Source: an uncultured Spirochaetaceae bacterium
GTDB lineage: Bacteria; Spirochaetota; Spirochaetia; Sphaerochaetales; Sphaerochaetaceae
Assembly (NCBI GenBank): GCA_944392935.1
Contig: CALXYI010000011.1
Location: 1-39,061 of the forward strand
Direction of reading: 5' to 3'
DNA: 39,061 nucleotides
Made by a program: the position numbers and the translations under genes. The notes under the pieces were generated by a model. The model saw nothing but the letters and a program-made list of their open reading frames with translations, did not search any database and had not been told where the DNA came from. The number at the start of each line of letters is the position of its first letter. Position 1 is the first letter of the stretch. Shown piece by piece: positions 1-34,827 of the stretch.

Positions 1-64
1 CATTCTGGACACAGATAAGTTCCGCTACCATCTTGCGAAACTGCCTTGAGTACCTCTTTGGCAT
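1..64 (-). CDS. IS3-type transposase OrfA, N-terminal fragment (cut by window edge)
   Basis: Reading the minus strand from the ATG at 64 gives 21 residues beginning MPKRYSRQFRKMVAEL. That is the usual opening of the helix-turn-helix OrfA protein of IS3-family elements, which binds the element ends as part of the transposase. A good ribosome binding site, AGGAGG, lies at 71-76, seven bases before the start. The rest of the gene is beyond the window edge, so it cannot be said whether the element is intact. The family assignment rests on this short stretch only. Confidence 0.6.
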   Translation of the reverse strand, partial: MPKRYSRQFRKMVAELICVQN

Positions 65-141
65 CTTTCCCTCCTAAGTGAGTGTTATACCCTTAAAAAC
101 CCGTGTCTACTAAAAAAGGAAAGCTCAGGGGAGGGTATTGC

Positions 142-171
142 TTGACAAGTCACTACGGGGGGGGGTAGTCT
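142..171 (+). promoter_or_regulatory. Promoter with a G9 run as its spacer
   Basis: A perfect -35 box TTGACA lies at 142-147. Nine consecutive G residues occupy 157-165, followed directly by TAGTCTATAT, which offers a -10 at 166-171 (TAGTCT, 18-bp spacing). A transcript would start near 178-180, leaving a 5' leader of about 25 bases before the lipoprotein ATG at 205. Gain or loss of one G would change the spacing to 19 or 17 bp and so alter promoter strength. The -10 box is only a moderate match. Confidence 0.65.
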
Positions 172-204
172 ATATCCAGATTTCAATAATCTGGAGGATT
201 GAAG

Positions 205-1041
205 ATGAAAAGGATTTCGATTGTTCTTCTTGCAGTCGCTATGCTCTTTGCATTCGCATCATGCGACAATTCGACGCCAACGGATGTAAGCAAGGTATAC
301 GCCTATAGCGAGGATCAGCTTGTTGCTTATATGTCCAATTCCGCAGTGAAGTCTGTTACGATTGTCGGCGAGATCACGCTTTCAGCGCCTGTCGATATCA
401 CGGCAGATGGCTTTGAGCTTGTAGGTGCAGAGGGAAGCAAGCTTACTATTTCACATGATGATGAGCTGATCCAGGAAAACGGAAATGCATCCGGCATGAT
501 TGATGTAAAAGCGGATAATGTCTCCATCAGGAATATCGATATAGAGATTCCAGCTGATTCGGCTCTTATCAATATCATCTATACGAATAACACCGGCCTC
601 ACAGTTGCGGATTCCTCCTTTGCATGGCTTGGCGAGGTCGCAGATTATGATTCCGTGGCTCAGTCCAAGATCAATCAGGCAATCTGCATCGATAGCAACG
701 GCAGCGCATCCATAATCGGAACAAGCTTCAGGAATGCAGTGACACCGGTATATGCAAGCAGCCCTGATGTAAAGGTTGATAACTGCAGGTTCAATTCCGG
801 AATCGAATTCGAGACCATCAGCGAGGCCAGCGCCGTCGTGAATTGCTCTCCTGTCGGGGAAGGCGAAGTGCTTGGAACCGCAAAAGTAGGTGTATGGTAT
901 GGCGAAGCAAGTGCAACTGCCCCCACTGAAGAAGCAGCCAAGGCTTTCCTTGATTCTGTTTCCGGTGACGATATCATAACAAGGCTCTGGAATGGATCCG
1001 ACTATACGGAATATCCTGCAGCCGCAGGTGATGCACAGTAA
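205..1041 (+). CDS. Surface lipoprotein, probable right-handed beta-helix
   Basis: The product is a 278-residue lipoprotein of unknown function. The start is the ATG at 205, placed by GGAGG at 193-197 with 7-base spacing; the TTG at 199 is less likely. The first 18 residues form a lipoprotein signal, with Lys-Arg, a hydrophobic core and then FASC, so Cys18 would be lipidated. The body has regularly spaced short strands (VKADNVSIRNIDIEI, LINIIYTNNTGLTVADS, NQAICIDSNGSASIIG, VYASSPDVKVDNCRF) like the rungs of a pectate-lyase-type beta-helix, a fold common in adhesins and polysaccharide-binding proteins. It would sit in the outer membrane or periplasm. Expression probably depends on the G9 promoter just upstream. 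Lipoprotein status is well supported; the beta-helix is inferred from the repeat pattern. Confidence 0.8.
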   Translation: MKRISIVLLAVAMLFAFASCDNSTPTDVSKVYAYSEDQLVAYMSNSAVKSVTIVGEITLSAPVDITADGFELVGAEGSKLTISHDDELIQENGNASGMIDVKADNVSIRNIDIEIPADSALINIIYTNNTGLTVADSSFAWLGEVADYDSVAQSKINQAICIDSNGSASIIGTSFRNAVTPVYASSPDVKVDNCRFNSGIEFETISEASAVVNCSPVGEGEVLGTAKVGVWYGEASATAPTEEAAKAFLDSVSGDDIITRLWNGSDYTEYPAAAGDAQ

Positions 1042-34104: not shown

Positions 34105-34827
34105 ATGGCGTATGTTTATGTGGCTGATGGGGATGCACCCATACGGCTCAGGCTCCAGCAGTATCTTGGGATCTACGGCTATTCGGCAGTCGGGTTCGAT
34201 TATCTCTCGGACCTTGGGCGTGCGCTGCAGAAGACAGCGCCGGATCTCCTTGTCATGGAGCTGGAATTCGAGGATGGAGACGGGCTCTCGTTCCTGAAGC
34301 AGGTTGCGCAGAAGTACCGCTTCCCGGTGATCATAGCATCCGCACGCAGCAGCGAGAGCGACAGGATAATGAGCTTCGAGTTCGGATGCGATGATTTCGT
34401 TGCCAAGCCCTATTCGATGCTTGAGGTGACGCTCCGCGCCTCTGCGGTCCTGCGCCGCCGCCGCATGAAGGCAGCTGAGAACTCGAGGTGGTATATCCGT
34501 TCCACATGCCTTTCCATCAACTGGGATGCCCACATCGCGACGCTCTCGCATATAGATGGCGGATCTACAGGGGGGGGGGTACAGGAGATACGCTTCACCG
34601 CCTCGGAGTGGAAGATCCTCGTCTTCCTCGTCTCCAATGCAGGCCGCCTCGTATCGAGGCTGCAGCTGCTGCAGTCATGCTTTCCAGAGAGTCTCGAGAG
34701 CTACGACAGGATAATAGACACGCACATAAAGAACATCCGCTCCAAGTTCGGCCCCGGAGGGTCGGAATGGATAGAGACCGTCAGGGGCTACGGCTACCGC
34801 TTCCGCGGTTCCCTGTCGCCAATGTGA
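34105..34827 (+). CDS. Atypical OmpR-type response regulator with G10 tract
   Basis: The 240-residue protein has a receiver domain (1-118) and a winged-helix DNA-binding domain (about 135-236, ending DTHIKNIRSKF and ETVRGYGYRF). The phospho-acceptor position is Glu52 (LLVMELEFEDGDG), where its downstream paralogue has Asp52. The conserved Thr is Ser79, while Lys101 is kept. Glu can mimic phospho-Asp, so the protein may be active without a kinase. A run of ten G encodes Gly156-Gly158 and part of Val159 in a hairpin turn that the paralogue lacks. The gene is in frame here. Loss of one G would end the protein before the recognition helix. GGGAG abuts the ATG directly, so initiation is weak or leaderless. 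Confidence 0.88.
   Translation: MAYVYVADGDAPIRLRLQQYLGIYGYSAVGFDYLSDLGRALQKTAPDLLVMELEFEDGDGLSFLKQVAQKYRFPVIIASARSSESDRIMSFEFGCDDFVAKPYSMLEVTLRASAVLRRRRMKAAENSRWYIRSTCLSINWDAHIATLSHIDGGSTGGGVQEIRFTASEWKILVFLVSNAGRLVSRLQLLQSCFPESLESYDRIIDTHIKNIRSKFGPGGSEWIETVRGYGYRFRGSLSPM
34570..34579 (+). repeat. G10 mononucleotide tract inside a regulator gene
   Basis: Ten consecutive G lie between TACA and TACAGGAG. The reading frame passes through as GGG GGG GGG G. With nine G the frame stops at TAA after 43 codons. With eleven G it runs out of frame to about 34901. Either change removes the DNA-binding domain. Confidence 0.9.

Follow-up and report, generated by a model that had tools for sequence, protein, structure and literature searches.

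In Treponema pallidum, the promoter of tp0126, which encodes an OmpW homologue, carries a poly-G tract between the -35 and -10 boxes and is most active at a spacer of 17 bp (PMC7864442). The same source describes poly-G tracts of variable length in the promoters of tprE, tprG, tprJ and tprL, with short tracts being permissive; the tprL promoter is more active with 8 G than with 10 G. A poly-G tract is also found between the -35 and -10 boxes of porA from Neisseria meningitidis, where the spacing sets transcription (PMC7864442). A sequence-only reading of the DNA analysed here had named porA and the tpr genes as examples of the same design. This is correct for porA, where the tract lies in the spacer, but the tpr tracts are said only to lie within the promoter in the account available (PMC7864442). 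Insertion sequences that choose their targets are known as well: IS1397 and others insert at REP sequences (PMC1525189) and elements of the IS1202 family at dif sites in a fixed orientation (PMC10132070), and the target-choosing elements described in these sources read palindromes or dif sites. Our literature search revealed neither an earlier report of poly-G spacer promoters in gut spirochaetes nor an IS that homes on or chooses poly-G runs. Here, we describe a putative phase-variable promoter of a lipoprotein gene in an uncultured member of the Spirochaetaceae, its recurrence in related genomes and its association with an IS3-family element.

The window, i.e. the whole stretch of DNA that was analysed, comprises 39,061 nucleotides and is contig C11 of a genome with 66 contigs and 1.8 Mb. 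Its features are compiled in Table 1. The order at 142-171 is TTGACA-AGTCACTAC-GGGGGGGGG-TAGTCT, followed by GGAGG and a lipoprotein gene. That TTGACA and the -10 box are set apart mainly by nine G had been stated before and was borne out, the spacer of 18 bp being made up of nine nucleotides plus G9. The 3' half of the spacer consists of the G-run, which borders directly on the -10 box, and each G gained or lost therefore alters the spacer. The -10 box itself matches TATAAT in three of six positions. The previous assignment of the downstream gene (205-1041) as a lipoprotein gene was confirmed by the lipobox FASC, whose cysteine is residue 20 (codon 262-264). The protein of 278 amino acids had no match in Pfam; a paralogue encoded on contig C41, also behind a poly-G promoter, is 35% identical. 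A single-sequence model of its fold had a mean pLDDT of 34, was useless and was discarded.

Table 1 Features of the window around the poly-G promoter and of the second long G-run
Feature	Position	Strand	Remarks
Outer (left) end of IS3-family element, tip at 127	1-127	-	Identity with start of contig C39
Start of transposase orfA, MPKRYSRQFRKMVAELICVQN	2-64 (starts at 64)	-	
-35 box TTGACA	142-147	+	Unchanged in alignment of five own-genome promoters
18-bp spacer, AGTCACTAC (148-156) plus G9 (157-165)	148-165	+	
-10 box TAGTCT (TAnnnT)	166-171	+	T at position 6 in 152/155 poly-G promoters of the genus
Predicted transcription start, A after C	178	+	From pyrimidine/purine pattern of the genus at positions 12/13
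Shine-Dalgarno sequence GGAGG	193-197	+	Also in paralogues
Lipoprotein gene, 278 aa, begins MKRISIVLLAVAMLFAFASC	205-1041	+	ATG at 205
Second run, G10, inside OmpR-type response-regulator gene (34105-34827)	34570-34579	+	Between receiver and DNA-binding domains

Runs of at least nine G are found only twice in the window, at 157 and 34570. Counted as matches, three were seen, compared to a mean of 0.39 in 100 shuffles, one of which reached three. The bare promoter motif, with up to one mismatch, gave three matches in the window alone, with 3.46 expected and thus no excess over chance; only the match at 142-171 was exact. A sigma-70 scan of the window did not list the promoter at 142-171. Taken by itself, the window gives weak support for the predicted promoter, and it is the comparison of genomes that makes this support strong.

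The second run, at 34570-34579, is outside the promoter system. The response-regulator gene that harbors it adjoins a second regulator and a histidine kinase, and a slip in the G10 would cut off the DNA-binding domain. Inspection of 29 related response-regulator loci revealed a run of at least seven G in none of them, so a conserved switch in the response regulator is not claimed. One of these loci, from the related species G018, has a C9 run (L270, position 1742).

The genome from which the window derives has 15 runs of at least nine G (overlapping matches merged), seven of them with TTGAC 8-13 nt upstream. TTGAC followed after 8-13 nt by at least six G was found at seven places, the reversed control pattern at none. 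Besides the window gene, six loci share the design, with spacers of 17-19 bp. An eighth run of at least nine G, at the contig end C63, has TGGACA upstream and repeats the promoter of contig C26. In the promoter on contig C13 (L341, first 100 bases, minus strand) the run is interrupted, GGGAGGGGG, which may represent a locked state. The promoter on C41 (L019) has two G9 runs at contig positions 1146-1154 and 1170-1178, one 5' of the -35 box and the other inside the spacer. A conserved 5' hairpin right after the start site, to which CAGATTTCAATAATCTG in paralogues had pointed, was dropped as a candidate; 24-nt folds of 146 promoters were no stabler than shuffles (Wilcoxon P 0.27).

A search of both strands of the 48 genomes of the genus for TTGACA-N2..32-G6-TA gave 241 matches, compared to 3 for the reversed pattern; the motif is present in 37 genomes and absent from 11. 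From the matches listed we drew 155 distinct places in 33 genomes with spacers of 14-23 bp; 4/152 fell outside this range in an earlier count and such spacers were excluded. The sample comprises the listed places of G006-G019, two of G020 and one or two from other genomes, with 16 of the 33 genomes contributing a single place. Places left out were one at a contig end (G012:C98), two of those in G020 and the majority of those in G021 and later genomes, and the promoters of the own genome on C38 (TTGACT) and C41 (an additional A in front of the -10 box) stand outside the 155. Although the pattern fixed only TA, 152/155 places have TAnnnT as the hexamer next to the G-run. Position 12 after the tract is a pyrimidine in 129 and position 13 a purine in 127 places. 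Such an order, with a -10 hexamer followed by a discriminator of six bases and then a start site, argues that the run abuts the -10 box, and from it a start at 178 is predicted for the window.

Although spacers of 8-38 bp were allowed by the pattern, 138/155 measure 16-20 bp. The mode is 19 bp (67 places), followed by 18 bp (39), and not 17 bp. Most runs have 9 G (87), followed by 10 G (24) and 8 G (23); short or interrupted tracts are a minority, with G6 in 10/155. As many as 16 of the examined places are in one genome (G014). Compensation of spacer length, by which a long prefix would be joined to a short run, was weak; the permutation P was 0.00035 for all 148 promoters but 0.064, and thus only suggestive, without G6 tracts. 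Promoters without G-runs, from which a spacer optimum of the genus might have been read, were too few and swamped by an apparent 3-base coding signal.

The promoters are biased in what they precede. A lipoprotein gene follows within 22-63 nt in 132 of the 140 places that are readable, the other 15 of the 155 being cut by contig ends. The remaining eight comprise four proteins with a hydrophobic N terminus, two of which look like lipoproteins missed by the rule, two other proteins and two places without a call. By the same rule, 3 of the 33 non-overlapping open reading frames of the window are lipoproteins, the window gene among them. When the genes behind 148 promoters of an earlier set were grouped by similarity, those that could be read formed 56 groups, of which the largest had 43 members, and the promoter is therefore common to many unrelated lipoproteins.

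The sequence-only reading had stated that a lack of tract-length variation among related genomes would argue against it. The comparison was made and did not refute it, as the number of G differs in 12/16 near-identical promoter pairs across genomes and in 17/30 within genomes. Pairs were taken as near-identical if their prefixes differed at no more than one position and the 36 nt that follow the run were 90% identical or more. In total, the tracts differ in 29/46 pairs, which are not independent of one another, and are equal in 17. This count is by genomic place; an earlier one of 23/27 was biased since identical copies had been merged. One genome per species was compared, and the variation is thus between species or between paralogues. 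A case in point is G007 and G010, which have 11 versus 9 G at one locus and 10 versus 8 G at another, with the downstream 36 nt identical; the proteins behind these two pairs are 87% and 70% identical. As tracts differ while their flanks match, the runs change faster than the flanks.

The design extends beyond the genus. With a stricter pattern of seven G, it was found in 44/139 genomes and 3/22 genera of the family, with no match of the control. In an even draw of 392 genomes from the phylum, 69 have this stricter pattern, 67 of them from the same class, and the control matched twice. The loci examined outside the genus are a small part of these matches: a lipoprotein follows in 9/10 places in genus g2 of the same family, in 13/20 in three genomes of family f3 and in only 3/16 in other families. 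These counts indicate a link to lipoproteins that is strong within the family, holds for some further genomes of the class as well and is not universal. G453 (L309-L316), a one-contig genome from another family of the class, has the same design with runs of 12-17 G, several of them before lipoproteins. The spirochaete promoter-leader pattern was also encountered on JAAWEO010000087.1 (L089), which is titled Angelakisella and probably is a mis-binned contig.

Upstream of the window promoter lies the end of an insertion sequence. Positions 1-127 are the same as the start of contig C39 of the own genome, and the two sequences part exactly after 127; copies in five related species are 79-88% identical. 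The orfA fragment of the window, with 21 amino acids, had no profile match. A full related orfA (P0001, 97 amino acids) matches HTH_Tnp_1 (E 7e-4, below the cut-off) and is followed by an overlapping orfB in another frame. The orfB fragment matches rve, the integrase core (E 2e-11), and the NCBIfam profile of the IS3 transposase (E 7e-40, short of the full-length cut-off), this copy ending at a contig end. Elements of the IS3 family, to which IS1397 belongs as well, have terminal TG...CA inverted repeats and duplicate 3-5 bp of their target. The left tip found here ends with ...CA; the right end was not recovered from the copies, which stop at contig ends.

With 1-127 as query, 19 places in 6 of the 48 genomes of the genus were found. 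In 16/19 copies, a run of 9-12 G starts 29, 31 or 32 bp past the tip, which was placed 33 bases past the conserved TATACCCTT by analogy with two own copies. The run is always on the same strand and the IS in one orientation (copies L326-L340). As the flanks between tip and run differ, the insertions are separate ones, and a match by chance in a given 6-bp interval is estimated at about 1 in 40,000 (approximately 15 runs, 1.8 Mb, two strands). Among the exceptions, G039:C25 has GGTGGTGGAGGGGG at about the place of the G-run; G039:C13 and G027:C2 are only partial matches and look like remnants. Nine of the 16 runs belong to TTGACA promoters. Two, both in G039, lack TTGACA and stand in front of lipoprotein-like genes, and five are not of this promoter type (G018:C33, C14, C5 and C4; G000:C39 of the own genome); that of G018:C33 sits in an open frame of 318 codons. 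A family-wide search with orfA yielded two more copies with a readable left end, both in other genera: the one in G119 carries a G10 at roughly 27 bp from its tip, the decayed one in G061 no G-run. A match in G044:C21 is confined to the end of orfA and was left out of the scoring.

In the simplest reading of this arrangement, the G-run is recognized by the IS or by a host factor. We consider it likely that this spirochaete IS3-family element lands by G homopolymers, in one orientation and about three helical turns (29-32 bp) 5' of at least nine G. Contingency loci would then double as transposon harbours, because this lineage keeps G-runs in the spacers of putatively phase-variable lipoprotein promoters, and insertion would spare the -35 box and the gene. 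In the window, 14 bp lie between the tip and the -35 box, and the C32 paralogue is the uninterrupted counterpart of the IS-interrupted site.

At the sequence level, we could demonstrate the anatomy of the promoter, its recurrence, its bias towards lipoproteins and tract differences within and between species. Very probably, the feature is a slipped-strand, phase-variable promoter of the sigma-70 type that serves a regulon-like set of lipoproteins. The anatomy is the same as in the T. pallidum precedent, from which we infer tuning of the spacer by strand slippage. Through slips during replication, one G would be added or removed, the spacer would range over about 16-20 bp, and transcription of the lipoprotein gene would go up or down. 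With many switchable loci, any one cell would display a single lipoprotein combination out of many, presumably at the cell surface, and switching may take place within populations; the benefit could be evasion of immunity or of phage, or adaptation to a niche. By analogy, the window promoter with 9 G (18 bp) would be in an intermediate or low state and reach the best spacing upon loss of about one G, and the assembled spacers of 18-19 bp would mostly represent intermediate or low states. The IS3-family element has inserted 14 bp upstream of the -35 box, and its spacing from the G-run is the one also seen in its other copies. Both the observation and the interpretation of the sequence-only reading stand, the latter as a supported one.

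If, on the other hand, the G-run were a rigid or passive spacer of a constitutive promoter family, its length would drift because homopolymers mutate fast, and expression would not be tuned. The most common assembled spacers (18-19 bp) could then be the optimum of the sigma factor, and the weak compensation of spacer length is in line with such drift. But 8-10 unbroken G placed exactly against the -10 box in front of unrelated genes need selection, because substitutions would break them, and the tprL promoter of T. pallidum is described as less active with 10 G than with 8 (PMC7864442). We regard a passive spacer as unlikely.

It is less probable still that the run persists because it is bound, by a regulator or, as a landing site, by the IS transposase, with the effect on spacing being secondary. 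The IS tip does lie 29-32 bp from G-runs even where the promoter motif is missing, and the run itself may be read; however, an IS end is present in only 6/48 genomes and the promoter motif in 37/48, and in all 37 the run is placed between the -35 and -10 boxes. Finally, with the IS tip only 14 bp upstream of TTGACA, the lipoprotein gene could be transcribed from an outward or hybrid promoter at the IS end, the poly-G promoter being a relic. This is hardly credible, since paralogues and relatives have the same promoter without an IS and TTGACA is part of the target DNA, not of the IS. Thus, a phase-variable promoter with a tunable spacer is the reading we prefer.

Poly-G promoters of T. pallidum have been studied gene by gene; here, the same kind of promoter appears to be standard for a large and diverse set of lipoproteins in relatives that are uncultured. 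Its presence across the class makes it possible to ask how switching by spacer length evolved and for what reason spirochaetes prefer it. Should the IS indeed read G-runs, this would be a new kind of target choice, and the element would be a natural probe of what sets long G:C tracts apart in the cell. Elements that target REP or dif sites, as described, also keep a fixed position to a short recurrent motif, those at dif a fixed orientation as well; here, the motif would be a G homopolymer at a distance of 29-32 bp from the tip, and the spacers of putative phase-variable promoters are among the sites. Among the promoters, porA is a single porin locus in Neisseria, whereas many loci with lipoproteins in an unrelated bacterium are concerned here. 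For tprE/G/J/L, the available description does not give the position of the run relative to the -35 and -10 boxes, and these genes encode putative porins or outer membrane proteins. The closest precedent is tp0126, with which the G homopolymer in the -35/-10 spacer is shared; the system described here differs in serving lipoproteins of many unrelated groups, in belonging to an uncultured genus and in its association with an IS. Altogether, the design appears to be of a known kind, like that of tp0126, but on a larger scale and with an unexpected transposon partner.
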